Origin: Martelella sp. NC20
GTDB lineage: Bacteria > Pseudomonadota > Alphaproteobacteria > Rhizobiales > Rhizobiaceae
Direction: 5' to 3'
DNA: 64,000 nt
NCBI RefSeq assembly: GCF_013459645.1
Contig: NZ_CP054861.1
Coordinates: 2,592,001 to 2,656,000, forward strand
Numbering within the stretch: the stretch's first letter is position 1; every line of letters begins with the position of its first letter. Shown here one piece after another: positions 3,172-39,909 of this stretch. Made by a program: the position numbers and the translations under genes. The notes under the pieces are model-generated. The model was given only the letters and a program-made list of their open reading frames with translations. It did no database searches and was not told the origin of the DNA.

Positions 3172-3189
3172 ACTGTCCGATTGAACAGT
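3172..3189 (-). promoter_or_regulatory. LuxR-box-like palindrome upstream of the acylase gene
   Basis: Read toward the gene: ACTGTTCAATCGGACAGT, an imperfect 7-4-7 inverted repeat matching ACTGTCA-N4-TGACAGT at 12 of 14 arm positions. A TAATCT hexamer (minus strand, 3149-3144) begins 23 nt downstream, giving a box near -42 of the predicted promoter. Same box-to--10 geometry as five other boxes in this window. Confidence 0.65.
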
Positions 3190-3311
3190 CGCGCGTGGTC
3201 AAGGCATCGCCCTGCTGCCGGCGCAAAGATTGCGTTTTTGCGGGTTCGGGTGATTTCCGGCATCTGATTTCCCCCTTGTTCGTTTGGTTTCAGCATATCA
3301 GACGCCATTTT

Positions 3312-4184
3312 TCAATGCGCCGCATGGCGTGCCTCGACCATGCTCAGACCGGCCGCGACGAAGAAGCAGAGCGCCCCGAACCAGAGATTGGCGTTGGAGG
3401 CGTCGAGCGCCCATTGCGGGTCCTTGCCGCGGGGCACATAGGCGACCATCGACGCGATCATGAAGGCGATGCAGCCGAGCAGGTTGATCGCGACGATCCA
3501 CCAGGCGATCTCGCGGCGCGGCCGGACATTATGCGCATGGCTGGTCTCGATATAGGCGAGATAGGCCGAGACCAGGAACAGCACCGAGCCGATCATGCCG
3601 GGCAGCCAGATCACGGCGTTCTGCATCAGCCAGCCGGTGGGCGCGTTCAGGGCATCGAAGGTGTTGAAGTTGAAGGCGATCGTGCCGGCGAACTGGGTCG
3701 CCGCGCTGATCCAGCCGGCGCTCTTCGGGTCCCATCCCAGAAGGGAAGGCCTCTTGCTGCCGCTGGTATAGTCGTCATCGGCATTGGCCGCCTGGAAAAG
3801 CTGCAGGTAGGCGGCGGTCGTGAACGGTATCGACCCGGCGAAGAATGTGACATTGGCCGTCCAGTCCGGCAGGCCCCGGGTCAGCGCCGGAAACAGCGAC
3901 AGCACGCTGCCGAGCATGAACAGGAACGAGCCGATGACGAAGACGAGGCCCATGATCCAGTTGTAGCGCGCGGTATGCCATGGCGCGGCGCGGGTGTGCT
4001 CCAGCGCGCGGCGCTCCCGGAACAGGCCCTTGCGGTGGTCGCGGGCAAGCCACAGAACCGGCCGGCCGGCCCTGTGATAGCGGCGCAGGGTAACGAACGG
4101 CCAGGGTCCGCGCGCCTCTTCATGAGGCTTTGTCGCGGCGTTCCGGGTTTTCTGTTTCATGGCTTCGGCTCGCGACGTTTTCAT
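3312..4184 (-). CDS. Polytopic inner-membrane protein, YrhK-like C-terminus
   Basis: 290 residues with a basic N-terminus (about 70 residues) followed by about six hydrophobic helices arranged as two similar halves. The pattern 'short charged loop, NxxWFGALCFFVAAGLSMVEA' near the C-terminus resembles the YrhK-type membrane domain. The function is unknown. Its start codon lies directly after the stop of the upstream aspT-like gene, so it is probably translated as the last gene of the ytcA-mdtNOP-chaA-aspT operon. That context suggests a role in membrane or pH stress, but nothing in the protein itself shows a substrate or catalytic site. Confidence 0.7.
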   Translation of the reverse strand: MKTSRAEAMKQKTRNAATKPHEEARGPWPFVTLRRYHRAGRPVLWLARDHRKGLFRERRALEHTRAAPWHTARYNWIMGLVFVIGSFLFMLGSVLSLFPALTRGLPDWTANVTFFAGSIPFTTAAYLQLFQAANADDDYTSGSKRPSLLGWDPKSAGWISAATQFAGTIAFNFNTFDALNAPTGWLMQNAVIWLPGMIGSVLFLVSAYLAYIETSHAHNVRPRREIAWWIVAINLLGCIAFMIASMVAYVPRGKDPQWALDASNANLWFGALCFFVAAGLSMVEARHAAH

Positions 4185-5873
4185 TTAGCTGATCAGCACG
4201 ATCACGATGCCGAACAGGGTCAGGATCGTACTCGAGGTCGCGTAGGGGACCGAGAAGCCGAGGGAGGGGATCTGGCTTTCCGCCTTGTCGGTGATCATGC
4301 CGAGGGGGGCAGCGGCCGTGCGCGCGCCGGCGCAGCAGCCGAGCAGGATCGCGTCGTCGAAGCGGAAGATGTATTTGCCGATATAGATCGACAGCAGCAT
4401 CGGGAGTGCCGCCGCGAAGATGCTCCACAGCACGAAGATAAAGCCGAGTTCCTTCAGCCCCGCAAGAACGCTCGGCCCCGCTGAAAGCCCAACGACGGCG
4501 ATGAACATGTTGAGCCCGATCGAGTTCATGAACCAGGTCGTTGCCTGCGGCACCCGCCCGAACGCCGGACGGATCGAGCGCAGCCAGCCGAACAGCAGGC
4601 CGACGATCAGCACGCCGCCGGCCGTCGACAGCGTCAGTGGAACGGAGCCGACTCTCAGCGTGAGCGAACCGATCAGCGCGCCGACGATGATCGCGGCCGC
4701 GATGAAGGCGATGTCGGCGCGATTGGTCTCGCGGTCGAGATAGCCGAACTTGCGCGCCACCGCCGAAATATCCGCCGAGCGCCCGACGACGGTGACGACG
4801 TCGCCGCGGTAGAGCCGGGTGTCGGGCAGGATCGGAATGTCGACGGACATGGCGCCGCGCCGGATCCCGGTCAGGAAGATCCCCCGCGTCTCGGGCATGT
4901 GGGCGAGTTCGGCAAGCGACTTGCGGTGGATGTTCTTCGCCGTCACCAGAATGTCCGTGCCCTCGACCTGTACGCCCAGAAGCTCCGCGTCATCGATCTC
5001 GGCCAGCACCCTGCCGATCTCGCCGAGCAGCACGTGGCGCTCGCCCGCGAATGCCAGCACGTCGCCCGGTTCGAGCACCGTGTCGGCGGTCGCCTCGGTG
5101 ATCGCGCCGTTGCGCCGCAGGCGGGCAATGAACAGGCGGTGCCCCTTGAAGAAGTGCTCGGCCGCGAAGATCGTCAGGCCGTTCAGCGGCGACTGCTCGT
5201 CGACGCGGTAGGCGCGCGCGACATACTGGTGCCAGGCCGTGCCCCTGCCGCTGCGGTCGCTTCCTCCGCCCACCCGGCGGACATAGTCGCGGCAGGCGGC
5301 GGCGATGTCGACCCGCATCAGCTTCGGGCCCAGTATGCCGAGTATCACCACCGAGCCGAACGTGCCGATGACGTAGCTGATCGAGAAGGCGGCCGGCAGG
5401 ATGCTGTCCGCGCTGGCCCTGGCCGCGGCGGTGATCGAAGATTGGGAGATCGCGGTCTGGGAGAGGCCGAGGGCGGAAGATGTCGTGGTCGAGCCGGCGT
5501 ATAGCCCGGCGGCGATGCCGACATCATATCCGGCAAGCCGGACGGCAAGGTAGACGGCGCCGAGGCTCATGAGGCAGACGAGGGCTGCGAACGCCGCCTG
5601 CTGCAGGCCGCCGGAAAACAGCCCGCGCACGAATTGCGGCCCGGCGCTGTAGCCGACGGCGAACAGGTAGAACACGAAGAAGATGGTCTTGACGTCGTTG
5701 GAGACGGTGATGCCGATCTGGCCGATCACCAGCGCCGCCAGAAGCGTCGCCGTGACATCGCCGAGCGATATTCCCGCGATCTTGACCCGTCCCAGGGTGT
5801 AACCTGCGAAGAGGGCGAGGAAGAGCGGGATTTCGACGTTGTCGCGCAGTGTGGTTGCCAGCCAGTCAAGCAT
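4185..5873 (-). CDS. AspT-type aspartate:alanine exchanger family transporter, copy 1
   Basis: 562-residue secondary antiporter. It has five N-terminal membrane helices, a central soluble region with two TrkA-C-like (RCK) domains around residues 200-370, then five more helices. The start at MLDWLATTLRDN is chosen because it matches exactly the start and length of the paralogue at 38096-39784; the longer upstream frame adds a low-complexity Ser run. AspT exchanges external aspartate for internal alanine, consuming a cytoplasmic proton when paired with a decarboxylase. Here no aspartate decarboxylase is visible, but a glutamate decarboxylase gene lies 11 kb away. Substrate is therefore open: Asp/Ala, Glu/GABA or another pair. 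Operon partner of chaA and mdtNOP. Confidence 0.85.
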   Translation of the reverse strand: MLDWLATTLRDNVEIPLFLALFAGYTLGRVKIAGISLGDVTATLLAALVIGQIGITVSNDVKTIFFVFYLFAVGYSAGPQFVRGLFSGGLQQAAFAALVCLMSLGAVYLAVRLAGYDVGIAAGLYAGSTTTSSALGLSQTAISQSSITAAARASADSILPAAFSISYVIGTFGSVVILGILGPKLMRVDIAAACRDYVRRVGGGSDRSGRGTAWHQYVARAYRVDEQSPLNGLTIFAAEHFFKGHRLFIARLRRNGAITEATADTVLEPGDVLAFAGERHVLLGEIGRVLAEIDDAELLGVQVEGTDILVTAKNIHRKSLAELAHMPETRGIFLTGIRRGAMSVDIPILPDTRLYRGDVVTVVGRSADISAVARKFGYLDRETNRADIAFIAAAIIVGALIGSLTLRVGSVPLTLSTAGGVLIVGLLFGWLRSIRPAFGRVPQATTWFMNSIGLNMFIAVVGLSAGPSVLAGLKELGFIFVLWSIFAAALPMLLSIYIGKYIFRFDDAILLGCCAGARTAAAPLGMITDKAESQIPSLGFSVPYATSSTILTLFGIVIVLIS

Positions 5874-5904
5874 TGTTGCATGTGCTCCGTTGGTTGTCGC
5901 CCCT

Positions 5905-7026
5905 TCAGGGCACCAGTGCCAGAAGGACGAAGACGACGAAGATGACGAGGTGGACCGCCCCCTGCAGCACCGTCGTCCGTCCCGTGCCAAGCGTGAGCGT
6001 GCTGACAAACAGGGTGAGCAGCAGCATCACCATCTGTTCCGGCTCGAGGCCGAGAGTGATCTGCTGGCCGATGAAGATCGAAACCAGCGCGACGATCGGG
6101 ATCGACATGCCGATGCTGGCGAGCGCTGAGCCCAGAACCAGATTGATGCTCTGCTGGATCCGGTTGCGCGCCGCCGCCTGCACCGAGGAAATCCCTTCCG
6201 GCAACAGGACGAGCGCCGCGATCACGACGCCGACCAGGGCGTGCGGCAGGCCGGCGGAGGAGATGGCGAGGTCGAGCGGGTGTGACAGGGCCTCGGCAAG
6301 CAGGATGACCACCAGCAGTGATACCGGCAGCATCACGGCGCTGATCGCCGTCATCCGCGCGGATGGTTTTTCTGGGTGTTCGGGAAAGAAATCCTCGCCG
6401 TGAGAAGCATCCGTCGCGGCGGCCTCGGGTTCATCGACGAAGTAATTGCGGTGGCGCACGGTCTGGACGAACAGGAACACGCCGTAAAGAACAAGGCAGC
6501 ACAGGCTGATGACCAGAAGCTGTGCCCAGGAATATTGCCGGTCCGCGCCGGAGATCGCGAAATTGGGAAGCACGAAGGCGAGCGTCGAGAGCGTGCCGAG
6601 CACGGCGAGTGCGGCGGAAGCGGCAGGCAGCTTGAAGGTCTGTTCGTGATATATCCTGCCGCCGCGCACGAGGCAGAGGCCGATGATCCCGTTCAGGACG
6701 ATCATCACGGCCGCGAATACCGTGTCGCGGGCGACTTCTTCCGCGCCTTCGATGCCGGAGAGCATGATCGAGATGATCAGCGCGACCTCGATCAGCGTCA
6801 CGCAGCAGGCGAGGATGATCGAGCCCATCGGCTCGCCAAGACGCGCGCCCAGCACCTCGGCATGCAGCACGGAGGCAAACACCGAACCGCCGAGAAGCAG
6901 GACGGCCGGAAGCACGAACAGCATGGCGGTTTCGTGCAGGATGCCCACCATTTCAAGTGCCGCCCACACCAGGGCGGCGATGGGCAGCAACAGGCTCCAC
7001 AAGGGGATCGAACTGCGGGCGTGCAT
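5905..7026 (-). CDS. chaA: ChaA-type cation/proton antiporter (Ca2+:H+ / Na+(K+):H+)
   Basis: 373-residue member of the CaCA superfamily with about eleven hydrophobic helices. The two internal repeats each carry an acidic ion-binding helix: ACCVTLIEVALIIS in the first half and LLPEGISSVQAA in the second. ChaA exports Ca2+, Na+ or K+ in exchange for protons and helps at alkaline pH and high salt in E. coli. It sits 31 bp upstream of the aspT-like gene and 68 bp downstream of mdtP on the same strand, so it very likely belongs to the ytcA-mdtNOP-chaA-aspT transcription unit. This pairs ion homeostasis with drug or acid efflux. Confidence 0.85.
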   Translation of the reverse strand: MHARSSIPLWSLLLPIAALVWAALEMVGILHETAMLFVLPAVLLLGGSVFASVLHAEVLGARLGEPMGSIILACCVTLIEVALIISIMLSGIEGAEEVARDTVFAAVMIVLNGIIGLCLVRGGRIYHEQTFKLPAASAALAVLGTLSTLAFVLPNFAISGADRQYSWAQLLVISLCCLVLYGVFLFVQTVRHRNYFVDEPEAAATDASHGEDFFPEHPEKPSARMTAISAVMLPVSLLVVILLAEALSHPLDLAISSAGLPHALVGVVIAALVLLPEGISSVQAAARNRIQQSINLVLGSALASIGMSIPIVALVSIFIGQQITLGLEPEQMVMLLLTLFVSTLTLGTGRTTVLQGAVHLVIFVVFVLLALVP

Positions 7027-7094
7027 GCGTTTCTCTCTTCCCGGCTCTCAATGCTTCGCTCTGTCCCGGCGTATCGCGAGGAGCGGCTTTTGCG

Positions 7095-8576
7095 TTATCG
7101 TGGCGTCGTCGCTGCGGTCGATGTGCCGAGCACGAAGGCGAGATTGGCGGCGGCGGTGAATGCGGCCTCGCGCGCATCGCCCTCGGCGAGCTGCGCGTCG
7201 AGCAGGCCGTTCTGCGCCGTGGCGAGCGCCGAAACCGTGCCGACGCCGCTCTGGTAGGATTCCAGCGCGGAATCATAGGTCTTGTAGGCCGCCTGCCGGA
7301 GCTTGACGGCGGAATCATTGGCCTGGATCGCCGTGGTTAGCGCATTGGAGGCGACCACGATTTCGCGGGCGGCGGCATCTTTCAACTGGTCGAAACTGCG
7401 CTCGGCGGCCTCGACCCGGCTCTGGGCCTGCTTCAGATTGGCATCGCGCATGCCGGCGTCGTAGAGCGGGATCGTGGCGCCGAACATGATGTTGCCGTTG
7501 AGACCGTTGTTTTCCACGGCCGGCAGGCCGGCGGCGTCGAGCTCGGTCTGGTAGGTGGACAGCGTTCCGAAAACGCCGATCTTCGGCATGAAGTCGGATT
7601 TCGCCTTCCTGACGCCCTGGCGGCTCGCCTCCAGCGCGGCATAGCCGGCGAAGATATCGGGCCGGTTGGCAAGCGCGATCTCGATCATCGTCTGGGTCGG
7701 CATGTTCGCGGCGGCGGGAAGCCGCCGGTCTTTGGTATCCACGATCTTCAGCTTCGTCATCGGCGACACGCCGATGGCGCCGAGCAGCGCCTGATAGGTA
7801 TCCTGTTCGCCGCCGCGCGCCTGGACCACGCGCAGTTCCTCCTGCGCCACGATCTGCTCGGCCTGGGCGAGATCGACCGAGGTCGCGAGCCCGCGCTCGC
7901 GCCGGGCCTTGATCGCGTCGTAAACGGTGCGGCTGTTGGCAAGCGCCTGGCTGGCGGCGCGGCTGTGGGCGCGGGCGGCGTTGTAATCGTGGAAGGCGCT
8001 CGTGACCTCGAAGGTCAGGCGCTGGTGGGTGGCGTTGAACTGGTAGTTCGCGGCAAGCGACAATTGCTTCGCGCCTTCCACGACCGCGCTGCGGCCGCCG
8101 AAGTCGAAGGCAAGCCATTGCAACGCCATGAATGGCACGACGCCGTTAATATTGGAGTTGAAATAGGCGCTGCCGCCGATCGGGATCGGAAGCTCGGCGG
8201 CATTGTCATTGCTGCCGCCGATGACATTGGCGGTGATCACGGGCAGATAGGTCGCGTCAGCCATGCCGACGGCAAGGGCTGCCTGCCGGGCCTGTTCCCA
8301 GGCCACGCGGGTATCGGGATTGGTCCGCTGGGCGAGGTCGATCAGTTGCGGCAGGCTGTAGACCTTGCTCTCGTCCACCGCCGGGGCGGTGAGCGCCAGC
8401 GCTCCGCTCGCCTCGGCCTGCCGGCGCATTTCGCCTGCCTCGCCATCGGCCGGTTGCCATTGCTTATCCGGGGATTGCGGCGCAAGCGCGAGCGTATCGG
8501 CGACGCAGCCGGAGAGCGCCAACATCAAGGCAAGCAACATGCCGCTGCCCAGGGCAGGCATGAGGTGTCGTTTCAT
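7095..8576 (-). CDS. mdtP: Outer-membrane factor lipoprotein of a tripartite efflux pump (TolC/MdtP-like)
   Basis: 493-residue outer-membrane channel lipoprotein. The signal peptide ends in a lipobox LSGC (Cys about residue 24), as in NodT-type factors. The body shows the paired coiled-coil repeats of the TolC family, e.g. LANSRTVYDAIKARRERG and AYKTYDSALESYQSGVG. It overlaps mdtO by 4 bp (ATGA), showing translational coupling. The neighbours (HlyD-type adaptor, FUSC-type inner-membrane protein and a YtcA-like small lipoprotein) reproduce the E. coli order ytcA-mdtN-mdtO-mdtP, so I use those names. The substrate is unknown; the E. coli system is linked to dyes and sulfa drugs. Confidence 0.87.
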   Translation of the reverse strand: MKRHLMPALGSGMLLALMLALSGCVADTLALAPQSPDKQWQPADGEAGEMRRQAEASGALALTAPAVDESKVYSLPQLIDLAQRTNPDTRVAWEQARQAALAVGMADATYLPVITANVIGGSNDNAAELPIPIGGSAYFNSNINGVVPFMALQWLAFDFGGRSAVVEGAKQLSLAANYQFNATHQRLTFEVTSAFHDYNAARAHSRAASQALANSRTVYDAIKARRERGLATSVDLAQAEQIVAQEELRVVQARGGEQDTYQALLGAIGVSPMTKLKIVDTKDRRLPAAANMPTQTMIEIALANRPDIFAGYAALEASRQGVRKAKSDFMPKIGVFGTLSTYQTELDAAGLPAVENNGLNGNIMFGATIPLYDAGMRDANLKQAQSRVEAAERSFDQLKDAAAREIVVASNALTTAIQANDSAVKLRQAAYKTYDSALESYQSGVGTVSALATAQNGLLDAQLAEGDAREAAFTAAANLAFVLGTSTAATTPR

Positions 8577-10420
8577 CGGCTCTCTCCCGTTCCCGCCTCG
8601 TCCATCACGGCCGCTTCTTCTGTTCCGGCGGTTTGCCCGGCGTCCAGTCGTTGTTCCGCGACAGCCAGCGTGGTCCGCGTCTCGTCATCGACCCCGGGCC
8701 TGAAGTAAAGCGCCAGCGACAGGTTCCCCAACAGGGCGGCATCATGGCGATAACCCTCGCGCTCCATTTTGCCCGGACGCATATGTCGCGGTTCATAGGA
8801 GGCCATGTCAACCGCTTCGCGGATGACGCCGAGATCCGACTGGATCGATGCGAGAAGCCCGGTCGAGGCCTGACGCACCGATCCTTCCGCGCCCGCAAGC
8901 GACTTCAGCTTGGCGATGGCCGCCGCCGTGCGCCGCTTGACCTCGTCCTTGACGCTGACCGGCCAGATATTGGTGAATATCACATAGACCACGGCATTGC
9001 CGAGCAGGATGCCGATGATGCGGTCGCTGGCGGCGCTCAGGCTGGTGCCGGGGCCGAAGCCCTGGATCACCGTCAGCAGGAAGGCGAGCGCGATCTGGAC
9101 GCCGCCATAGGAAATGCGCTCATTGCCTGTGGAAACCCAGGCGGCAAGCGAAACCACGGCGAAGATCAGGAAGGCCAGCCCGCCGACCGAATCGAGCTGC
9201 GGTATCACGAACAGGATGGCGATCAGGCCGAAAAACGCGCCGATCAGGCAGCCGGTGATCCGCAGAACCAGCTTGTGGACCGTGTCGCCGGTGGTGCCGA
9301 GCGCCGCGACATAGCAGGTGATCATCGCGGTGTGGATGCCCTGCCAGTCGATCGCGGTGTAGATGAAGAAGCAGGTGACGGCGGCAAGCGTGGTCTTCAG
9401 CGCGAAATGCAGGTGGCGGGGGCTCGAGAAGATATCGGGCGCGACCGGCGGGTCGACCACGGGGGCGCCTTTTTCGAGCGGCGCCACGCGGGCGAGGTCC
9501 GCGAGCGTGCCGGCAACCGCTTCGAGTTCCGCCGGACTGTCCGCCGTCACCGCGGGAAGGTCTTTTCTGGAAAGCACGGCGTCGGCGAGCGCGCGGCAGT
9601 CGGTAGCCAAGCGCTGACGCGCCGCGCCTTCGTCATGGCCGTCCTCCGGCAGGGCCGAGACGGCCAGCATCAGGCGATAGCTGTGGGACTGGGTCCGTTC
9701 CAGAAACGCGTAGGCGGGGCCGCGAAGGATCGAGAGCAGCTTGATCAGCAGAAGCCGCTTTTCCTGCTCGGCGGTACCCTCGCCGATGAGTTCGATCAGC
9801 CTTTCCCGGGCATAGGCGTCTCCCTCCAGTGCAGCCGCGGATATTTCCAGCCGCTCGGCTATGGCCTCGCGCAGCAGTTTCTGCGGCGGGATGCCGAACA
9901 GGAGATTATACACCGCCATCACCGCCATCGGCACGAACACCATCGCCCAGGCATAAAGCACGGCCCGGGTCGCGACCTCTCCGATCGGCACATTGCCGAG
10001 CAGGGTCAGAACGAAGGCGATCACGAGGGCGACGATGCCGGCCTGCTCGCCGGCCTTGGTGGCGGAATCGAGATAGAGGAAGATGAACGAGGCGATCACG
10101 ATCGCGGCGATCTGCGCCGGTGGATGGTCGATCGTGAGGTTGATGATGCCGATCAGCAGAAAGACCACGAAGCTGACAGCGATGATGATGCCGATGCCGG
10201 TGACGACATTCTCTGCGGCATTGGCGCGCATCAGGAAGATCACGAGATAGCAGCCGATGGCGGCTTCCGGGAAATGGTACATCATCGACAGCACGGTCGA
10301 GATCGCGCAGATCGCGCCGATCGACAATGACAGCCGCAGCCGTCCCGGAAACGGCATCAGGTCTTCGATCAGGCGGTGCGACCGCCGCCTGAAGTCGCTG
10401 CGCTCAGCAGTGCTCGCCAT
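8573..10420 (-). CDS. mdtO: FUSC-family inner-membrane efflux component (MdtO/AaeB-like)
   Basis: 615-residue protein made of two blocks of about six transmembrane helices (residues about 25-185 and 345-510), each followed by a cytoplasmic helical domain. This is the layout of the FUSC/AaeB family, which exports aromatic acids and related compounds using the proton gradient. It is a little shorter than E. coli MdtO. The start overlaps the end of mdtN by 17 bp and the end overlaps mdtP by 4 bp. The assignment rests on family layout plus the conserved gene order with its HlyD and TolC partners. Confidence 0.85.
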   Translation of the reverse strand: MASTAERSDFRRRSHRLIEDLMPFPGRLRLSLSIGAICAISTVLSMMYHFPEAAIGCYLVIFLMRANAAENVVTGIGIIIAVSFVVFLLIGIINLTIDHPPAQIAAIVIASFIFLYLDSATKAGEQAGIVALVIAFVLTLLGNVPIGEVATRAVLYAWAMVFVPMAVMAVYNLLFGIPPQKLLREAIAERLEISAAALEGDAYARERLIELIGEGTAEQEKRLLLIKLLSILRGPAYAFLERTQSHSYRLMLAVSALPEDGHDEGAARQRLATDCRALADAVLSRKDLPAVTADSPAELEAVAGTLADLARVAPLEKGAPVVDPPVAPDIFSSPRHLHFALKTTLAAVTCFFIYTAIDWQGIHTAMITCYVAALGTTGDTVHKLVLRITGCLIGAFFGLIAILFVIPQLDSVGGLAFLIFAVVSLAAWVSTGNERISYGGVQIALAFLLTVIQGFGPGTSLSAASDRIIGILLGNAVVYVIFTNIWPVSVKDEVKRRTAAAIAKLKSLAGAEGSVRQASTGLLASIQSDLGVIREAVDMASYEPRHMRPGKMEREGYRHDAALLGNLSLALYFRPGVDDETRTTLAVAEQRLDAGQTAGTEEAAVMDEAGTGESR

Positions 10421-11438
10421 GGCGAACCACTGTCGAGGCGGATGCGCCGATGCGCATCAGGTTTTCCGGGGGGTCTATGAGCTTGATGCGCACCGGGAAG
10501 CGCTGCGCGATCCTGACCCAGTCAAGTTCCTTCGGCACATAGGGAAGGGCGCTCGGAATATCGATCGCGCCGCCCGAGATCACGCCCCATCCGATGCCCT
10601 GGACCACGCCCTTCACCTCGACGGAACGGTCGGCCATGACATAGACCGAGGCGCAGGTGCCAGCTGTCAGGTTTTTCAGCTCCGCTTCCCTATAGAGCGC
10701 CGAAGCGTACCACTCGCCGGTGTTGACAAGCGTGAACAGCGGCGCGCCGGAGGCGACGAACTGGCCGCTCGATGTTGTCAAACCCACGACCCGGCCATCA
10801 TGCGGGGCGTAGATCCTGGTGTTGGCGAGATTGTGCCGGGCGATGTCGAGCGCCGCCCTGCGGCTCTGGATCAGGGCCAGCGTTTCCTCCGGGGACGAGA
10901 CCAGCGCGTCGGCCGCCTTGCTCTGCTGCAACGCCTGTTCGAGAGATACTTCTGCATCGCGCTTGGCCGTGCGCGCATCCTGCACTTCCTGATCGGTGAT
11001 GTAGCCCTTGGGTTGGAGCGGCAGCAGGCGGTCGAGGGTTTCCTGCGCGAGTTCGAGATTGACTCGGGCGCGTTCGATCTGCTGCAGGGCGATCTCCGCA
11101 TTGGCCCCTTCCGCCTCGATATTGCGTTTCTGGGTTTCGTGCATCGCCTCGGCGGCCTTCAGGTCGCCTTCGGCCTGGACCACGAGCAGCCGGTAGGACT
11201 CATCGTCGATCTCGAAAAGCAATTGCCCCTTTTCGACCCTGTCGTTTTCCGAGACAAGGATCTGCGATATCCGGCCGGGCACGGTCGAGGAAATCTGGGT
11301 GATCGGGGCCGTCAGCGTCGCGTCCTGCGACAGGATATCGGCGCCCATGCGCGCCATGTGCTTCCAGCCGAGAAAGGCGGTCGCGCCAATGACGACGATG
11401 GGGATCAGGGCGAGTGCCGCGGTCTTGGGGCTCAGCAT
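10404..11438 (-). CDS. mdtN: HlyD-family periplasmic adaptor of the efflux pump (MdtN-like)
   Basis: Membrane-fusion adaptor bridging MdtO and MdtP. The start at MLSPKTAALAL is preferred over an ATG 12 codons upstream because it places a single N-terminal membrane anchor at residues 5-25. The lipoyl half-motif follows: GRISQILVSENDRVEKGQLL, then a long coiled-coil hairpin (about residues 80-190) and the returning strand APHDGRVVGLTTSSGQFVASG. About 344 residues, matching E. coli MdtN in size. Four bases separate it from the YtcA-like gene upstream, and it overlaps mdtO downstream. Confidence 0.87.
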   Translation of the reverse strand: MLSPKTAALALIPIVVIGATAFLGWKHMARMGADILSQDATLTAPITQISSTVPGRISQILVSENDRVEKGQLLFEIDDESYRLLVVQAEGDLKAAEAMHETQKRNIEAEGANAEIALQQIERARVNLELAQETLDRLLPLQPKGYITDQEVQDARTAKRDAEVSLEQALQQSKAADALVSSPEETLALIQSRRAALDIARHNLANTRIYAPHDGRVVGLTTSSGQFVASGAPLFTLVNTGEWYASALYREAELKNLTAGTCASVYVMADRSVEVKGVVQGIGWGVISGGAIDIPSALPYVPKELDWVRIAQRFPVRIKLIDPPENLMRIGASASTVVRHGEHC

Positions 11439-11442
11439 GGCT

Positions 11443-11715
11443 CTACCGTCCGAACAGGATGAGGGATGAGGCAAGCCCGATGGCGATTGCCAGGAAAAGG
11501 TAGACGATCACCCGAACGGGCATCACATCATCGAGCCCGACCTTGATGAACACGAGCCTGACGATGATCGATCCGAAAATGCCGATAAGGGAACAGGCGA
11601 TCCAGGACGGGAAATAGGCGCCAAAGAAGGGAATCACGGGGCTGCCGTCCGCAGACGCGCAAGACGACAGAAGTAGTCCCGCCATGAGCAGGAGCATTGG
11701 ACCAGTTATACGCAC
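11443..11715 (-). CDS. ytcA: YtcA-like small lipoprotein / membrane protein
   Basis: 90-residue protein with an N-terminal signal ending LLSSC (lipobox-like), a short stretch with FFGAYFPSW, and two C-terminal hydrophobic helices. E. coli ytcA, a protein of nearly the same size and layout, stands at the head of the mdtNOP cluster, so gene order supports the call more than sequence alone. The start is GTG; an ATG six codons downstream is an alternative. Function is unknown, presumably accessory to the efflux pump. It is the first gene after the box-bearing promoter at 11780-11821. Confidence 0.72.
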   Translation of the reverse strand: MRITGPMLLLMAGLLLSSCASADGSPVIPFFGAYFPSWIACSLIGIFGSIIVRLVFIKVGLDDVMPVRVIVYLFLAIAIGLASSLILFGR

Positions 11716-11774: not shown

Positions 11775-11821
11775 AGTATCCTGCATAGCAGGAAAGCCTG
11801 TCAACCGTCAGGGCTGACAGT
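11775..11821 (-). promoter_or_regulatory. LuxR-box-like palindrome (11804-11821) with predicted -35/-10 for ytcA-mdtNOP-chaA-aspT
   Basis: Toward the operon the box reads ACTGTCAGCCCTGACGGT (13 of 14 arm positions match). It runs directly into TTGACA, followed after 18 nt by GATACT (11780-11775). The -35 is consensus, so this is the best conventional promoter among the box sites. The box-to--10 distance is 24 nt. Confidence 0.72.
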
Positions 11822-25987: not shown

Positions 25988-26290
25988 ATGCATTTCACGC
26001 CTCGAGAGATCGACAAGCTGATGATCTACACGCTCGCGCAGGTCGCGCAGCAGCGCAAGGATCAGGGTCTGAAGCTCAACCACCCCGAAACCGTCTCGCT
26101 CATTTCCGTGGCCGCGCTGAACGGCGCCCGCGCGGGCAAGACCGTCGAGGAGGTCATGGAAATCGCGCGCAAGGAAATCACGCGCGACGATGTGATGGAA
26201 GGGGTCGTCGACATGATCCCCTACGTGCAGGTGGAGGCCGTCTTCACCGATGGCAGCCGTCTCGTCACCATCCATGATCCCATTCAGTGA
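25988..26290 (+). CDS. ureA: Urease gamma subunit
   Basis: 100-residue small structural subunit of nickel urease, which hydrolyses urea to ammonia and carbon dioxide. Start [11 protein letters not shown] with ribosome site GGGGAGA is the family N-terminus; the open frame runs further upstream without support. Motifs [12 protein letters not shown] and [16 protein letters not shown] are characteristic. First gene of ureABCEFGD-ureT. A ureB start lies 10 bp after its stop. Confidence 0.97.
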
Positions 26291-26300
26291 GGGCTTCGAC

Positions 26301-26708: not shown

Positions 26709-26744
26709 CCGCCCGGTACAACCTCATTCGACAGGATTTTTGAA

Positions 26745-28463: not shown

Positions 28464-28574
28464 TTTCGATGGCCGGGCGGAGCATGTCTTCGCCCGGTAC
28501 GTCCACCAACAACGACGCCGGAAAGTTCAGCCGGAAGGCTGTCCTTTCCAGGCGCAGAGAATGCGGCGAACACC

Positions 28575-29150: not shown

Positions 29151-29171
29151 GCGCAAGGCACGGGGCAGGGA

Positions 29172-29894
29172 ATGTCAGACAAGAATAACGGCCGGGCCCA
29201 CTGCGAACACGAGATGATCCTGCTTGCGCGTCTTCTGCAGTTTTCCGATTCGACGCTTCCCGTGGGAGCGTTCGCGTTTTCCAACGGACTGGAATCCGCG
29301 ATCCAGACCGGCGTCGTCAGCGATGCGAAAAGCCTTGAGCGGTTCGTCGAAACGGTCGTCCGTCAGGCCTCGAACATGGATGGCATCGCCTTCCTGCATG
29401 CCCATCGGTCAGCCATGAGCGGCGTTTATGACGCGGTGCTTGAGGCCGACCGGGAATTGTGGAACCGCCGCGTTGGCGAGGAACAGCAGATGATGCTGGC
29501 GCGCATGGGGCGCAAATTCGCCGAGCTTTCACTCAAGATCAGCAGTTTTCCTGATCTTGAGCGCTGGCTGGCCGACATCAAGGCGGGCAATACGCCCGGC
29601 TGTTTTCCCATCGGCCAGGCCATGGCGCTTGCCCATATGGGCGCGGATGAGAAACAGGCCTTCGTGGTCCATCAATATGGCGTTTCGGCCATGATCATGA
29701 GTGCTGCGGTGCGGCTGATGCGGATCGATCATCTCGATACCCAGCGCATCCTGTTTTCCGTGCAGGGCCGCGTCGGGGACGATTACGAGCGCGTCAGCGG
29801 TCTGGAACTCGATGAAATGTCCGGCTTCGCGCCGGTCTTCGATGTCCTGGTGGCCCATCACACCAAAACCCATGTCCGGCTGTTCATGAACTGA
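29172..29894 (+). CDS. ureF: Urease accessory protein UreF
   Basis: 240 residues. Typical UreF motifs are LLQFSDSTLPVGAFAFSNGLES near the N-terminus and the C-terminal hydrophobic helices. UreF acts with UreG and UreD to activate urease and guards the GTPase step. Starts 21 bp after ureE. Followed by an unusual triplicated 13-bp sequence before ureG. Confidence 0.93.
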   Translation: MSDKNNGRAHCEHEMILLARLLQFSDSTLPVGAFAFSNGLESAIQTGVVSDAKSLERFVETVVRQASNMDGIAFLHAHRSAMSGVYDAVLEADRELWNRRVGEEQQMMLARMGRKFAELSLKISSFPDLERWLADIKAGNTPGCFPIGQAMALAHMGADEKQAFVVHQYGVSAMIMSAAVRLMRIDHLDTQRILFSVQGRVGDDYERVSGLELDEMSGFAPVFDVLVAHHTKTHVRLFMN

Positions 29895-29932
29895 CCGGCG
29901 AAAAAGGCCGGTGAAAAAGGCCGGCGAAAAGG
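29895..29932 (+). repeat. Three tandem 13-bp units between ureF and ureG
   Basis: CCGGCGAAAAAGG, CCGGTGAAAAAGG and CCGGCGAAAAGG in direct succession; each contains an AAGG Shine-Dalgarno-like core, the last lying 9 bp before the ureG ATG. Likely slippage-derived; copy number could tune ureG translation (inference). Confidence 0.75.
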
Positions 29933-29941
29933 ATTGGCACA

Positions 29942-30586
29942 ATGAAGAAAATCACGCGTATCGGCATTGGCGGCCCGGTCGGATCGGGCAAGACGGCCGT
30001 GATCGAAACCATCACGCCGCGTCTGATCGAGCTTGGCGTCAAGCCGCTGATCATCACCAACGACGTCGTCACCACCGAGGACGCCAAGCAGGTGCGGCGC
30101 ACGCTCAAGGGCGTATTGGTCGAGGAAAAGATCGTCGGCGTTGAAACAGGGGCATGCCCGCACACCGCCGTGCGCGAGGACCCGTCGATGAACATCGCCG
30201 CGGTCGAGGAACTGGAGGAGAAATACCCCGACAGCGACGTCATCCTGATCGAATCGGGCGGCGACAACCTGACGCTGACCTTCAGCCCGGCGCTCGCCGA
30301 TTTCTACATCTACGTCATCGACGTTGCCGCCGGCGACAAGATCCCGCGCAAGAACGGCGCCGGCGTCTGCCAGTCGGATATTCTCGTCATCAACAAGACC
30401 GATCTCGCCCCTTACGTCGGCGCGGACCTCGGCGTCATGGACCGCGATTCCAGGCTGATGCGCGGCAAGAAGCCGTTCGTGTTCACCAATTGCAAGACCG
30501 GCGAGGGCGTCGACGAACTGATGAAGCTGATCATGGACATGGCGCTGTTCGACGTGACGCCCGCAGCCGGCGAAGCCGCAGAGTGA
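29942..30586 (+). CDS. ureG: Urease accessory GTPase
   Basis: 214-residue SIMIBI-class GTPase that drives nickel insertion. P-loop [13 protein letters not shown], the Ni-binding CPH in [16 protein letters not shown] and the base-recognition NKTD are all visible. Length is typical. Four bases separate it from ureD. Partner of UreE, UreF and UreD. Confidence 0.97.
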
Positions 30587-30590
30587 TTTC

Positions 30591-31526
30591 ATGAGCCTCC
30601 ACGAACGCCTGCGCCGGATCGACGAATACCGGGAACTGAGCGGTTACAAGACCGAGCCCGCGCAGATGCGGGCCGCCGGCCCCGGAAAGATCGGGGCGCT
30701 GCGCCTCGGCTTTTCGGTCCGAGGCGGCCGTTCGGTGCTGTCCGATCTCTACCGGATGACGCCGCTTCTGGTGCAGCAGGCGCTCTACTGGGATGAGGCT
30801 ATGCCGGAACTGCCGATCTGCTCGATCATCTCGATCGGCGGCGGCATCCTGCAGGGCGATCGCTACACGATCGACATTTCGGTGGGCGAGGGAGCGTGCG
30901 CCCAGGTGACCTCGCAGGGCGCCAACCGCATTCACCAGATGGACGCCAACTACGCCTCGCAGCACCAGACGGTGACGCTTGAGAAGGACGCCTATCTCGA
31001 ATTCCTGCCGGACTTCACCATTCCCTATCGCGGCTCGCGCTTCATCAACGACACCGATCTCGTGGTCCACGAGGAGGCGACGCTGCTCTATGGCGAGATG
31101 ATGATGACCGGCCGCAAGCACCATCATGAAAGCGAACGTTTCGGCTTCGACCTGCTGTCGATGACCGTCAATGCCCGCCGGCCCGACGGACGCAAGCTGT
31201 TCACCGAAAAGGTGCTGATCGAGAAGGGCAACGAGACCATCGATTTTGCCGCGGTGATGGGCGGTTACGATGCCTTTGCCAACATCCTCTGCATCACGCC
31301 GCCGGCCGTCGCCGAGCGCATCCGCGAGCGGGTCGGCGTCAGTTTCGGCGATGAGCGGCCGCGCGCCGTCTCCGGCGTCTCGACGCTTCCCAACGGCGCC
31401 GGACTGATGCTGCGTGTCGTCGGCATCGAGAGTTACGACGTGCGCGCGGAAGTCAGGAATTTCTGGAAGGTCGTCAGGGAAGAAGCCCGCGGCAGAACGC
31501 TGCCGGAGGAATTTCTCTGGCGTTGA
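30591..31526 (+). CDS. ureD: Urease accessory protein UreD
   Basis: 311-residue scaffold that forms the UreDFG activation complex on apo-urease. Characteristic segments are LYRMTPLLVQQALYWDE, SIGGGILQGDRYTIDI and TSQGANRIHQM. In Brucella urease locus 2 ureD likewise follows ureG and precedes ureT, whereas other rhizobial clusters often begin with ureD. The gene-order match supports vertical or shared acquisition of this cluster type. Confidence 0.93.
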   Translation: MSLHERLRRIDEYRELSGYKTEPAQMRAAGPGKIGALRLGFSVRGGRSVLSDLYRMTPLLVQQALYWDEAMPELPICSIISIGGGILQGDRYTIDISVGEGACAQVTSQGANRIHQMDANYASQHQTVTLEKDAYLEFLPDFTIPYRGSRFINDTDLVVHEEATLLYGEMMMTGRKHHHESERFGFDLLSMTVNARRPDGRKLFTEKVLIEKGNETIDFAAVMGGYDAFANILCITPPAVAERIRERVGVSFGDERPRAVSGVSTLPNGAGLMLRVVGIESYDVRAEVRNFWKVVREEARGRTLPEEFLWR

Positions 31527-31552
31527 TCAACAACCAAGAAGGGGGTGCGGAT

Positions 31553-32539
31553 ATGGCGGAGAAACGGAAAGATTTTGCGACCCAGTGCCTGCGCGGGGCG
31601 GGACAGGTGTTCTTCATGGAGAACGCGCTCACGGGCGCGCTTTTCATCGTCGCGATCGCCTATGCGAGCTATGCCGGGGGCAACTGGGCGACCACGATCG
31701 GCGCCATTGTCGGTCTCGTCGTCGCCACGCTCACCGCGCGGCTTCTGGATTGCGATGGCGATTCGATCACCTCAGGCCTTTTCGGCTTCAACGGCATCCT
31801 CGTCGGCGTCGCGATCCCCACCTTCATCAGCGTTTCGCCGCAGCTCTGGTTCTATGTCGTCATCGGCGCGGCCATGAGCACGGTGGTGACGGCGGCGCTC
31901 GGGGCGATGATCACCAAAAGCTGGGGCATTCCGGGGTCTACCGGCCCGTTCGTGCTGACCGGCTGGCTGCTGGTGGCGGGGGCCTATACCTTCGGCGCGC
32001 TCGATGTCTCCGGCGACCATCCCGAACTGGTGTCGGACTATATCAACGGCGTGACGATGGTCCCGTCCCATATCGAACTCGTCCAGATATTCTTCCGCAA
32101 TATCGGCCAGGTCTATCTTCTCGGCAACGAGATCAGCGGCGCGATCATCCTTGTCGGCATCCTGATCGCCTCGCGGGTGGCCGGTATCGCCGCCATTTGC
32201 GGCTCGTTGATCGCCATGGCGACGGCGATCGCGCTGCGGGCGGAGCCGCATTCGGTGGTCCAGGGGCTCTATGGCTTCAGCGCGGTGCTGACGGCGATGG
32301 CGGTCGGCGTCGTGTTCCTGAAGCCGTCGCCGCGTGTTGTCGTCTATGCGTTGCTCGCCACCATCGTCACGGTTTTCCTGCAGGGCGCCTATGACGCGCT
32401 GACCGAGCCGCTCGGCCTGCCGTCCTTCACCGCGCCCTACGTGCTGACAATGTACCTGTTCATCGCGCCGAAGAAGCTGCTTGCGCCGCATCCGCACAGC
32501 GCGGTCGGAGAGCATCTCGTTTCCGATACCGATACCTGA
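31553..32539 (+). CDS. ureT: Urea channel/transporter (UT family)
   Basis: 328 residues from the ATG at 31553 with ribosome site AAGGGGG; a TTG overlapping the ureD stop is less likely. About ten membrane helices in two homologous halves. Repeated motifs include DGDSITSGLFGFNGILVGVAIP and the second-half counterpart VVQGLYGFSAVLTAMAVG, split from a longer match. This family forms urea-selective pores. It allows urea entry to feed the cytoplasmic urease at low external concentration. Confidence 0.92.
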   Translation: MAEKRKDFATQCLRGAGQVFFMENALTGALFIVAIAYASYAGGNWATTIGAIVGLVVATLTARLLDCDGDSITSGLFGFNGILVGVAIPTFISVSPQLWFYVVIGAAMSTVVTAALGAMITKSWGIPGSTGPFVLTGWLLVAGAYTFGALDVSGDHPELVSDYINGVTMVPSHIELVQIFFRNIGQVYLLGNEISGAIILVGILIASRVAGIAAICGSLIAMATAIALRAEPHSVVQGLYGFSAVLTAMAVGVVFLKPSPRVVVYALLATIVTVFLQGAYDALTEPLGLPSFTAPYVLTMYLFIAPKKLLAPHPHSAVGEHLVSDTDT

Positions 32540-36576: not shown

Positions 36577-36652
36577 TTTTTAGGTCACCGCAACCGCCTG
36601 AACAACATGTCAGACCGGACAGTTGACCGTGTGCAACCGCCCTGACTATCAG
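36577..36652. promoter_or_regulatory. LuxR-box-like palindrome (36606-36623) between the META gene and clcA
   Basis: CATGTCAGACCGGACAGT (11 of 14 arm positions). Toward clcA: overlapping TTGACC (-35) and TATCAG (36647-36652), 24 nt downstream. Toward the META gene: TTGTTC-N17-TAAAAA, also 24 nt away (36582-36577). It may serve both divergent genes. The rest of the 36410-36740 intergenic region shows no gene. Confidence 0.68.
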
Positions 36653-36740: not shown

Positions 36741-38084
36741 ATGGAAAATTCCGCAGAAGAACTCGAGCAGCCCGGCAGCCGGAACGCGCAGATCCGCTAC
36801 GTTATGCTTGCGGCGCTTGCGGGAATCCTGACCGGGTCCGTCGGGTCCGTGTTCCACCTTCTGATCGACTGGCTTCAGGCCTGGCCGCGCGTCCTCGCCG
36901 CACACGTCGACGGCATCGTGCTGGTGGCGGCCGCGGCGCTGATCACCATGTGCGCGACGCTTCTGTCGGTCTACTGCGTCCGCCGCTTCGCGCCCGAGGC
37001 CGGCGGCAGCGGCGTGCAGGAAATCGAAGGCGCCATGCTTGGGCTGCGCCCCGTCCGGTGGCAAAGGGTGCTGCCCGTCAAGTTCCTGACCGGCATCGTC
37101 TCGATCGCGTCGGGGCTGGTGCTTGGCCGCGAAGGCCCGACGATCCATATCGGCGCCTCGTTTTCGGCGGCGATCACCGATTTCTTCAAGGTCAGCGAAA
37201 CCGAGCGGCGCGGCATGCTGGGGGCTGGCGCCGCCGCCGGTCTCGCCTGCGCCTTCAACGCGCCGCTGGCCGCCATCCTGTTCATCGTCGAGGAGACCCA
37301 CCGGCAGTTTCCCTACACCTTCCGGACCTATATGGGCGTGATCATCGCCGCGGTGCTGGCGACGGTCATGACCCAGATCATCGGCGGCACGGCGCCGGAT
37401 TTCTCGATGGCGGTGGCAAGCCCGGAACTCTACCTGCTTCCCGCCTTTGTCGTCCTCGGCGTGCTGCTCGGCTTTCTGGGCGTCAGCCTTAACGCCGCGC
37501 TGATGTGGACGGGATCGTTCGCCGCCCGCGTCAATCGGCGCGTGCCCTATCTCTATCCGGCGGTGGTCGGCCTTGTCGTTGGCGGATTGTTCGTGGTGAT
37601 GCCGCTTTCGGTGACCGGGGGCGAGCATGTCGTGACCGCGCTTGCAGCCCACAGCGCCAGCCTTCAGGTTCTGCTGGCGCTCGCCGTGATCCGCTACGTC
37701 ACGATGGCGGCGAGCTATTCGGCGGGCACGCCGGGCGGCATCTTCGCGCCGATCCTGGCGCTTTCGATGTGCGTCGGCCTTGCCTTTGGCGGCATCGTCG
37801 AACTGGTGGCACCGCATGGCGTGCCGCTCGCCTTCGGCATGGCGGCCATGGGCGGACTGTTTTCAGCATCGGTGCGCGCGCCGATCGTCGGCGTGGTGCT
37901 GTCGCTGGAACTGACCGGGGCCTACACCATGGTGATGCCGCTGATCGTCACCTGCATGACGGCCAACATGGTCGCCGAGTGGATAGGCGGACGTCCGATC
38001 TACGACCAGTTGCTGGAGCGTACGTTGAAACAGGCGGGCATCAAACCGGACGCAAGGGGCGAGGACAAGATCGGCTTGGCGTGA
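36741..38084 (+). CDS. clcA: ClC-family Cl-/H+ exchanger
   Basis: 447 residues. Chloride-path motifs are GSGVQEIEGAM (the Ser of GSGIP), GREGPTIHIG with gating glutamate E131 and GGIFAP, and the pore Tyr is Y421 in GRPIYDQLL. The internal proton glutamate of exchangers is present as E185 in IVEETHRQF, so a coupled antiporter rather than a channel is predicted. In E. coli such exchangers carry away the charge created by decarboxylase-dependent acid resistance, so a partnership with GadB is plausible. Convergent with the second AspT. Confidence 0.92.
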   Translation: MENSAEELEQPGSRNAQIRYVMLAALAGILTGSVGSVFHLLIDWLQAWPRVLAAHVDGIVLVAAAALITMCATLLSVYCVRRFAPEAGGSGVQEIEGAMLGLRPVRWQRVLPVKFLTGIVSIASGLVLGREGPTIHIGASFSAAITDFFKVSETERRGMLGAGAAAGLACAFNAPLAAILFIVEETHRQFPYTFRTYMGVIIAAVLATVMTQIIGGTAPDFSMAVASPELYLLPAFVVLGVLLGFLGVSLNAALMWTGSFAARVNRRVPYLYPAVVGLVVGGLFVVMPLSVTGGEHVVTALAAHSASLQVLLALAVIRYVTMAASYSAGTPGGIFAPILALSMCVGLAFGGIVELVAPHGVPLAFGMAAMGGLFSASVRAPIVGVVLSLELTGAYTMVMPLIVTCMTANMVAEWIGGRPIYDQLLERTLKQAGIKPDARGEDKIGLA

Positions 38085-38095: not shown

Positions 38096-39784
38096 TCACA
38101 TCATCATCACGATCACCAGGCCGAACAGGATCAGCAGCGTGGTCGAGACCGCATATCCGACCGAAAAGCCGATCGCCGGGATCTGGCTTTCGGCCTTTTC
38201 CGTCAGCATCGCCAGCGCCGGAGAGGACTTCCTGGCCCCCGCGCAGCATCCAAACAGGATGGCGTCATCGAAGCGGAAGACGTATTTGCCGAGATACATG
38301 GCCAGCAGCGACGGGACAACGGAGGCGATCAGGCTCCAGAGCAGGAAGATGAAGCCCAGTTCCTTCAGGCCGCCGACAAGCGCTGGGGCGGCGGCAAGGC
38401 CAAGTGCGGCGATGAACAGGTTGAGGCCGATCGAATTCATGAACCACAGAGTGGCGCCGGGAACGCGGCCGAAGACGGGATGCACCGAGCGCAGCCAGCC
38501 GAAGAACAGGCCGATCAGCAGAATGCCGCCGGCCGTCGACAGCGTCAGCGGCACGTCTCCTACCCTGAAGCTCAGCGCCCCGATCACGGCGCCGGCGACG
38601 ATGGCGGCGCTGATGAAGGCGATGTCGGCCCGCTCGGTCTCCCGGTCGAGATAGCCGAATTTTCTTGCGAAATCGGCAATGTCGGTGGGACGGCCGATGA
38701 TCCGGATGACGTCGCCGCGATAGAGCACGGTATCGTCGAGCACAGGGATCGATACCGACAGGGCGCCGCGATGGATCGCGGTGATGAACACGCCCCGCGT
38801 CTCGGGAAGGTCCGCGAGCGCCTGCAGCGGCTTTTGGGAGAACTGGCGCGCGGTGATCAGCACGTCGGTGCCTTCGACCTCGACGCCGAGCAGTTCGGCG
38901 TCATCGACTTCCTCGAGCACCTTGCTGACCTCGCTCAAAAGCACGTGTCGCGACCCGGCAAGGGCGATGATGTCGCCGGCCGCGATCTCGACCGAGGCGG
39001 TCGCCTCCATGATCTGGCCGTTCCGCCGCAGCCGCGCCAGGAACAGCCTGTGATTGTCGAAGAAATGCTCGGCGCTGGCGACGCTGAGGCCGACCAGCGG
39101 CGAGGCCGGATCGACGCGGTAGGCCCGCGCGACATATTGGTGCCAGGCGGTGCCGCGCCGCGTTCTCCCGCCATCGCCTCCCATCCCGGCGGCATAGGCG
39201 CGGCAGGCAGCGGCGAGGTCGACCTTCAACAGCCGCGGCCCGATGATTGCCAGCATCAGGACCGAAGTGAGGGTGCCGATGATGAAGCTGATCGAAAACG
39301 CCGCAGGCATGATGTCGAGCGCGTGGGCCTTGGCCGCGGCCGTCATGGTCGATTTCGCGATGGCGGTTTCCGAAAGCGGCAGGGATGGCGAGGTTGTCGC
39401 GGAGCCGGCGAAGAAACCCGCCGCCGCCCCGACGTCGAGGCCGGCAAGCCGGGCGACGGCATAGACGCTGAGCAGGCTGATGACGCAGATGACGACCGCA
39501 AATCCCGCCTGTTTGAGGCCGCCTTCGAACAGGGCGCGCACGAATTGCGGGCCCGCGCTGTAGCCGACGGCGAACAGATAGAGCGCGAAAAACACGAATT
39601 TCATCTTCGGCGAGATTTCGATGCCGATCTGGCCGATGGCGAGCGCCGCAAGCAGCGTCGCCGTCACTTCGCCCAGCGATATGCCTTTGACCTGAATCCG
39701 TCCGACGGTGAAACCGACAACGAGGCAGAGAAAGAGCGGTATTTCCACGTTTTCCCGCAACGTGGTGACGAGCCATTCGGTCAT
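38096..39784 (-). CDS. AspT-type aspartate:alanine exchanger family transporter, copy 2
   Basis: 562 residues, the same length and layout as copy 1 (4185-5873): TM5, two RCK/TrkA-C-like domains, TM5. The two copies share long near-identical stretches, e.g. FGYLDRETxRADIAFI and KAESQIP, so they look like a duplication. The differences lie mainly in the first helices and in the soluble domains. Has its own predicted promoter with a LuxR-box-like site upstream (39892-39909), unlike copy 1, which is distal in an operon. Substrate not proven. Confidence 0.86.
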   Translation of the reverse strand: MTEWLVTTLRENVEIPLFLCLVVGFTVGRIQVKGISLGEVTATLLAALAIGQIGIEISPKMKFVFFALYLFAVGYSAGPQFVRALFEGGLKQAGFAVVICVISLLSVYAVARLAGLDVGAAAGFFAGSATTSPSLPLSETAIAKSTMTAAAKAHALDIMPAAFSISFIIGTLTSVLMLAIIGPRLLKVDLAAACRAYAAGMGGDGGRTRRGTAWHQYVARAYRVDPASPLVGLSVASAEHFFDNHRLFLARLRRNGQIMEATASVEIAAGDIIALAGSRHVLLSEVSKVLEEVDDAELLGVEVEGTDVLITARQFSQKPLQALADLPETRGVFITAIHRGALSVSIPVLDDTVLYRGDVIRIIGRPTDIADFARKFGYLDRETERADIAFISAAIVAGAVIGALSFRVGDVPLTLSTAGGILLIGLFFGWLRSVHPVFGRVPGATLWFMNSIGLNLFIAALGLAAAPALVGGLKELGFIFLLWSLIASVVPSLLAMYLGKYVFRFDDAILFGCCAGARKSSPALAMLTEKAESQIPAIGFSVGYAVSTTLLILFGLVIVMMM

Positions 39785-39863
39785 TCAGGACATTCTTTCA
39801 TCATGCTTTGCAGTTTTCCTCGAGCCGATGCGCAAATCCGCGCCGCCGGCCGATCAGCGGCCG

Positions 39864-39909
39864 AGAATAGGAGCAAAGGCCACTCCGGAAAACTGTAAGG
39901 CCTGACAAC
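39864..39909 (-). promoter_or_regulatory. LuxR-box-like palindrome (39892-39909) and predicted aspT-2 promoter
   Basis: Toward the gene: GTTGTCAGGCCTTACAGT (11 of 14 arm positions), with TATTCT (39869-39864) 23 nt downstream and a TTTTCC -35-like hexamer between (spacing 17). The gene starts 108 bp downstream of the box. Confidence 0.6.

Follow-up and report, generated by a model that had tools for sequence, protein, structure and literature searches.

Two regulators of Escherichia coli with a LuxR-type helix-turn-helix (HTH) domain, SdiA and GadE, are linked to acid resistance. SdiA has no cognate synthase and is encoded outside the acid fitness island; GadE has no autoinducer-binding domain and recognizes a different operator. 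SdiA up-regulates genes of the acid fitness island in a manner only partly dependent on N-acyl homoserine lactones (AHLs; PMC2812512); the terms 'binding site' and 'sdiA box' are absent from that report. GadE, the central regulator of E. coli acid resistance, is encoded in an operon with the mdtEF efflux genes (PMC3708157). LuxR solos of the PipR/OryR type lie beside an ABC importer and peptidases, and act at an inverted-repeat binding site (PMC4981722). The locus described here is a 64,000 nt stretch of the 6.11 Mb genome of Martelella sp. NC20 (contig 1, bases 2,592,001-2,656,000; hereafter the window; the genome is labelled G000). It contains a luxR gene inside an island of genes for urease, nickel uptake, antiporters and efflux, in which six promoters contain an 18-bp palindrome resembling a lux box. 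With a probability of about 0.82, these palindromes are the operators of the LuxR solo of the island, which activates the genes behind them; binding, activation, the ligand and pH as the occasion are all inferred. SdiA is the nearest precedent, being likewise a LuxR-family regulator that raises the expression of grouped acid-resistance genes, although the acid role proposed here is read from the genes alone. Unlike with SdiA, luxR lies inside the island, many promoters share the box, and the genes are those for urease, nickel uptake, antiporters and efflux. As with GadE, the regulator is linked to acid-resistance and mdt efflux genes; unlike GadE, it has an autoinducer-binding domain.

An earlier, sequence-only reading of the window had placed six palindromes at positions 3172, 11804, 19180, 25743, 36606 and 39892. 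All six were present there and, by the gene list, all were intergenic. Their description as near-identical was correct for three only. With respect to the form ACTGTCA-N4-TGACAGT, counted over 14 positions, the box between luxR (51 bp away) and nikA (75 bp away; 19180..19197, unstranded) and that between a FUSC_2 gene and the urease operon (25743..25760, unstranded) were perfect, while that upstream of ytcA-mdtNOP-chaA-aspT (11804..11821, minus strand) had one mismatch. The boxes upstream of a CBAH-family amidase gene (3172..3189, minus strand), between a META-domain gene and clcA (36606..36623, unstranded) and upstream of aspT copy 2 (39892..39909, minus strand) had three mismatches each. The motif is better written as ACTGTCAG-NN-CTGACAGT. 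When up to three mismatches were allowed, seven sites were found in the window against 0.85 expected, a number reached in none of 100 shuffles; as the earlier reading had stated, there was none at 44-64 kb. A position weight matrix (PWM) was built from eleven sites of other genomes, one of them identical to the box at 19180. Its six top scores in the window fell on the six boxes (29.3, 28.0, 24.7, 18.7, 16.0 and 12.9, that of the amidase gene ranking fourth), followed by a site at 42903 (12.3) and then by a score of 8.8; a score of at least 12 is expected 0.375 times in simulated sequence. The site at 42903 was rejected as a further operator, as it lies inside a cytochrome-c-domain gene (42740-44068), yet the same site is present in the related genome G300. 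By sequence alone, the weak boxes at 3172, 36606 and 39892 are indistinguishable from background; what speaks for them is their conservation and the promoter elements that accompany them.

Sites with at most one mismatch were termed strong boxes, and the reversed pattern, searched with the same mismatch limits, served as a genome-wide control. The 6.1-Mb genome contains three strong boxes, all of them in the island, while the control gave none. At this stringency the motif is not equally common upstream of unrelated genes, the outcome that the sequence-only reading had named as contradicting its proposal. The distinction is lost at up to two mismatches (nine sites, three of them in the island, versus eight in the control). 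Outside the island there are six two-mismatch sites; five fall within open frames that run for 100 codons or more, which is weak evidence in GC-rich DNA, and the sixth (L116) does not.

Thirteen Martelella genomes were compared, seven with a match to luxR (G000, its sister genomes G300 and G301, and G303, G299, G081 and M. limonii; two of these copies are damaged) and six without. A total of 23 strong boxes were found, 22 in the luxR carriers (3, 2, 4, 3, 2, 4 and 4 per genome) and one in the remaining genomes (0, 0, 0, 1, 0 and 0). Fisher's test of luxR against the presence of at least two strong sites gave p = 0.0006 for the seven carriers, and p = 0.016 when only the five intact luxR genes were counted; the genomes are related and these values take no account of shared ancestry, so they serve as a guide only. 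The 22 boxes adjoin luxR, nikA, ureA, ytcA, the CBAH-family gene, crcB-FUSC, a GAD/Xaa-Pro dipeptidase pair or a DUF1275/bicupin row. The lone site in a luxR-less genome (G222) lies inside a 995-codon coding frame, which reads like that of an NAD-glutamate dehydrogenase (presumably so, recognized without a family search), and was taken as a chance occurrence rather than an operator. The reversed pattern with at most one mismatch occurs three times in the 13 genomes (twice in G161, once in G081).

A strong box precedes all six nikA genes found, and the island ureases have a perfect box in five of five cases. By comparison, the 1.5-kb flanks of the 13 second ureases contain no site better than three mismatches, and only a single three-mismatch site, located 336 bp upstream of ureC in G081. 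Homologues of mdtN, GAD and clcA are present in all 13 genomes. The ytcA box scored 24.7 with the PWM in G000 and G301, 19.5 in G300, 11.3 in G299 and G303, and 7.8 in G081; no PWM site was found at this place in M. limonii. The same place, as assigned by inspection, scored 6.2 in two luxR-less genomes (G302 and G298), and the other four have no site there. A separate site with a PWM score of 9.3 was seen in G304 about 530 bp upstream of the mdtN match. Strong boxes precede genes only in those of the marine Martelella with this luxR or its remains, which points to one predicted sensor for the whole set.

For each of the six window boxes, the corresponding position could be aligned in both G300 and G301, where luxR and nikA each have a separate box. 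Genes are arranged differently in G303 and G299: there, luxR faces ureA across one perfect box, the CBAH-family gene and crcB-FUSC have perfect boxes, and the nikA box has a single mismatch. The distance between luxR and a perfect box is 51-54 bp in G000, G300, G301, G303 and G299, in line with the earlier statement that a LuxR-type regulator sits in the middle of the island with a box in its own promoter. M. limonii has two boxes between GAD and a gene for an Xaa-Pro-dipeptidase-like protein. In G081, the nikA box and a box in front of a DUF1275/bicupin/MFS/CBAH row beside clcA are on separate contigs. The coordination of the island operons by a single LuxR, as first proposed, is therefore supported at the level of genome comparison by the co-occurrence of luxR and strong boxes over the 13 genomes, and by boxes that are conserved and stay with their genes. 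In the G081 row (L109, 9069-13510), the perfect box is followed by the DUF1275, bicupin and major facilitator superfamily (MFS) genes and the row ends in the CBAH-family gene. The bicupin, which we take to be perhaps an oxalate decarboxylase (by recognition), may be a further proton-consuming member of the regulon.

The sequence-only reading had also claimed a -10-like hexamer 23-24 nt beyond each box. The best hexamers at offsets 22-25 indeed started at 23 or 24 in all six cases. These are TAATCT of the CBAH-family gene, at offset 23 (3144..3149, minus strand; identical in G000, G300 and G301); GATACT of ytcA, at 24 (11775..11780, minus strand; GATAGT in G300 and G301); the weak TATCGA of nikA, at 23 (19220..19225, plus strand; not kept at the same place in G300 and G301); TATCCT of ureA, at 24 (25784..25789, plus strand; one base nearer in G300 and G301); TATCAG of clcA, at 24 (36647..36652, plus strand; identical in the three genomes); and TATTCT of aspT copy 2, at 23 (39864..39869, minus strand; the same in G300, TAGTGT in G301). 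Except at nikA, each was also the best hexamer of offsets 1-50. The summed score was 12.5, versus no more than 2.7 in any of the other eleven 4-nt bins; this value was reached by none of 20,000 random sets of six from the window and by two of 20,000 from intergenic DNA. Since the weak sites may have been chosen by the earlier reader with the -10 in view, 14 further promoter or direction cases were tested (eleven from other genomes, plus the other sides of three window boxes, towards luxR, FUSC and META). These peaked in the same bin (15.4, versus 6.2 for the next).

The earlier reading had overlooked a -35-like hexamer, which begins with the final base of the box, overlapping it by that one base, at 17-18 nt from the -10. 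Its score at position 0 was 12.3 for the six promoters versus at most -1.6 at positions 1-29, and 28.3 versus at most -6.8 for the 14 further cases, values to be read with the knowledge that this hexamer was sought after the fact and that its first T is given by the box. It reads TTGACA at ytcA, TTGACC at clcA, and TTGNCA at nikA of G303 and G081, at luxR of G303, at FUSC and before DUF1275, and is poor at the CBAH-family gene, nikA and luxR of G000. In class II promoters the lux box is centred 42.5 nt upstream of the transcription start (PMC7585371). A -35 at the end of the box with a -10 at fixed spacing fits this activator place and, judged by both spacings, the boxes occupy the class II place, with a predicted centre near -42.5.

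The nikA promoter has a second candidate input. The sequence GTATGA-N16-TCATAC, the NikR operator of E. coli (PMC7055735), is found without any change at 19236..19263 (plus strand) and in all six nikA promoters of the genus. It lies 35-38 bp past the box in four genomes, and 133-134 bp past the nearer box in G300 and G301. Given this operator in front of nikA and the presence of nikR in the cluster, the importer falls within the predicted NikR regulon, and it is on these two grounds that nickel is taken as its substrate, since the sequence families alone leave the substrate open. The arrangement resembles the NikR-controlled nikABCDE operon in its exact operator and clustered nikR, and differs from it in the lux-box-like site upstream, which would make this a double-input promoter. 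In G000 the NikR operator lies just downstream of the predicted start, and the promoter would fire only with LuxR active and nickel short. The box itself was rejected as a NikR site, because the exact NikR operator is a separate element 38 bp beyond it.

The luxR gene (18409..19128, minus strand) encodes an autoinducer-binding domain (PF03472) followed by a GerE HTH domain (PF00196), both above the gathering score. The predicted fold is of LuxR type (mean predicted local distance difference test score, pLDDT, 85.5; predicted template modelling score, pTM, 0.65), and Foldseek matched it to QscR, TraR, RhlR, LasR and SdiA with template modelling (TM) scores of around 0.5. None of the seven luxR-carrying Martelella genomes has a match to LuxI (PF00765), nor do 14 named control genomes. 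Such matches were found only in G161 and G304 (L101-L104; two of the 13 genomes), both of which lack this luxR, which shows the sensitivity of the search. By the absence of a luxI match from the seven genomes, the regulator is classed as a LuxR solo.

In TraR, the Trp at position 57 contacts the lactone. This residue belongs to the pocket signature WYDPWG of the LuxR family, corresponding to TraR W57, Y61, D70, P71, W85 and G113 (PMC10134790). Eleven proteins were aligned over the pocket (nine of the 14 members of the subfamily, described below, plus two distant relatives), the register being taken from an alignment with LasR. Y66, D75, P76 and W90 were invariant and G115 was present in ten of the eleven, while the place of W57 (position 62) was occupied by E, Q or D in all eleven; the complete six-residue signature was thus not found. 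In solos of the PipR/OryR type, W57 is replaced by M and Y61 by W (PMC10134790). Assignment to these plant-responsive (PAB) solos was rejected, as the residues at the two places are E/Q/D and Y, not M and W. Like them, the Martelella protein is a LuxR solo encoded beside an ABC importer and has an inverted-repeat site; unlike in them, E/Q/D stands at the place of W57, Y61 is kept and the importer is tied to NikR.

The subfamily appears narrow: 14 proteins, including the query, were found at E <= 1e-10 in a search of 5.8 billion, which needs shared five-residue words, and family-wide 10 of 297 genomes match LuxR at E <= 1e-20. Among the named genomes, relatives were found at four loci, in M. 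mediterranea IOP_24 (81% identity), M. limonii (64%), a strain labelled M. mediterranea 175.2 (61%) and an Erythrobacter metagenome-assembled genome (27%). In a partial Pfam inspection, the neighbourhoods in G040 and G051 gave only weak matches to island genes (23-38% identity). The distant LuxR of G051 (39% identity, from another genus) is preceded by a perfect ACTGTTCAGGCGAACAGT (L106, 9979-9996), which lies 87 bp before its matched start. A row of FecCD-type ABC transporter genes stands behind this luxR relative.

Several findings weigh against the assignment of the palindromes to the island LuxR. At the cut-offs used, neither the island urease nor nikA is present in the six luxR-less genomes, so that part of the co-occurrence is a shared absence of genes. 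The short core CTGTCA-N4-TGACAG with at most two mismatches occurs 168 times in the G000 genome versus 123 for the reversed control, an excess that may reflect composition or weak sites. For 11 of the 14 further promoter cases, the first 50 nt contain a better -10 hexamer at some other offset, and several of the promoters outside the window have a weak -10. The neighbour of luxR, the classic acid-resistance gene GAD, lacks a promoter box of its own in G000, although it has one in M. limonii. Among four distant LuxR relatives, the upstream region contains a perfect palindrome in one case, a three-mismatch site in another and nothing of this form in two. In addition, luxR of G299 is divided between two frames (L080, near 9217-9990) and that of G081 lacks its 5′ part (L085, near 10001, next to an ABC-ATPase-like gene piece), yet both genomes keep their boxes, and no box within four mismatches was found around luxR of M. 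limonii. The damaged genes with retained boxes might reflect recent damage, a sequence error or another binder. They and the M. limonii gene would suit boxes that are the operators of a regulator encoded elsewhere, with luxR as just one of its targets. This is improbable: strong boxes are found only together with luxR or its remains, bar the G222 coding-frame site; CTG-N10-CAG is the form of a lux box; and NikR, the sole other transcription factor recognized in the island, has a distinct operator.

A somewhat less improbable, though still doubtful, alternative is that only the strong boxes at 11804, 19180 and 25743 are functional, the three mismatches in each of the others making them chance look-alikes. 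The clcA box is indeed degraded in G300 and G301, with a PWM score of 8.2 in both versus 16.0 in G000, which also counts against six operators. However, the three positions align in both sister genomes, their -10s are kept in all three genomes for the CBAH-family gene and clcA and in two of three for aspT copy 2, and in G303 and G299 the box of the CBAH-family gene is perfect. LuxR might also bind all the boxes and repress, since box position alone leaves the sign open, and ytcA and clcA have a good -35 and -10 of their own, which a repressor in contact with the -35 might obstruct; against this, the boxes stand where a class II activator would bind (PMC7585371), and repression appears improbable to the same degree as a regulator encoded elsewhere. 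That the palindromes are mobile or recombination repeats is very improbable: some do lie at breakpoints of gene order between species, but the loci share little sequence beyond the 18 bp, and a -35 and -10 follow at fixed spacing. A Pho box was also rejected, Pho boxes being direct repeats and the present sites inverted ones.

The genes behind the boxes were identified as follows. The CBAH-family linear-amide hydrolase (1987..3084, minus strand) matches PF02275; its score with the NCBIfam choloylglycine hydrolase model is 146 bits, below the cut-off of 350. The genes ytcA, mdtN, mdtO, mdtP, a chaA-like exchanger gene and aspT copy 1 occupy 4185..11715 (minus strand); mdtN and aspT exceed the NCBIfam cut-offs, mdtO, mdtP and chaA fall below them, and YtcA and FUSC were matched in Pfam. 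Upstream of the ytcA box, at around 11825-11930, about 97 bp between an outer membrane protein gene and the box are absent from G300 and G301; this segment contains an inverted GAGCATTTC/GAAATGCTC repeat and looks like a small intergenic repeat element. The nikABCDE-type importer (19273..24110, plus strand; PF00496) scores below the cut-off with all the NCBIfam Nik and Opp models, and is read as a nickel importer via nikR and the operator; nikR follows at 24117..24629 (plus strand; TIGR02793, 194.5 bits, cut-off 175.45). A FUSC_2 gene (24648..25733, minus strand; start codon uncertain) diverges from the urease operon, which comprises ureABC, ureE, ureF, ureG, ureD and a urea transporter gene (25988..32539, plus strand; ureE, ureF and ureD by position only). 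Most proteins of the urease cassette (25988-35163 of the window; L078, L080) are 93-99% identical between G000 and G303 while LuxR is only 62% identical, which hints at a recent transfer of the cassette within Martelella. Finally, a gene for a clcA-type chloride channel/antiporter lies at 36741..38084 (plus strand; PF00654), and aspT-type antiporter copy 2 at 38096..39784 (minus strand; PF06826, PF02080).

If the six palindromes are operators of the island LuxR, the set most likely comprises predicted functions in nickel and urea import, ammonia production, aspartate/alanine exchange, the movement of chloride, calcium and protons, the efflux of organic compounds and the cleavage of amides. Judged by gene content, these are the functions that defence against acid would require. 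A LuxR dimer, probably switched on by a small ligand, would bind the 18-bp box about 42 nt upstream of the transcription start and, with the end of the box overlapping the -35 by one base, would recruit RNA polymerase. It would in this way turn on its own gene, nikABCDE, the urease, ytcA-mdtNOP-chaA-aspT, clcA, aspT copy 2 and the amidase as a set. As five of the six pocket residues are kept while the lactone-contacting Trp is lost, the ligand might be an N-acyl amide other than a lactone. A wider proposal, tentative and as a whole unlikely, is that LuxR senses such a non-lactone N-acyl amide and switches on the full proton-defence set, including the CBAH-family amidase that would destroy the signal; a cue from other organisms, rather than pH, would then pre-arm the cell, and nickel shortage would gate one arm via NikR.

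To our knowledge, neither the targets nor the ligand are known for most LuxR solos, and no work on this Martelella regulon was found in the literature. LuxR solos are very common, with 4,276 clusters described (PMC10134790). For one narrow subfamily, the comparison of genomes by itself gives a compact predicted target set, a candidate operator, a promoter geometry and a second input through NikR. It would link a receptor of the type used in cell signalling to urease, nickel supply and antiport, and the question of its ligand becomes directly testable via the ureA or ytcA promoter.

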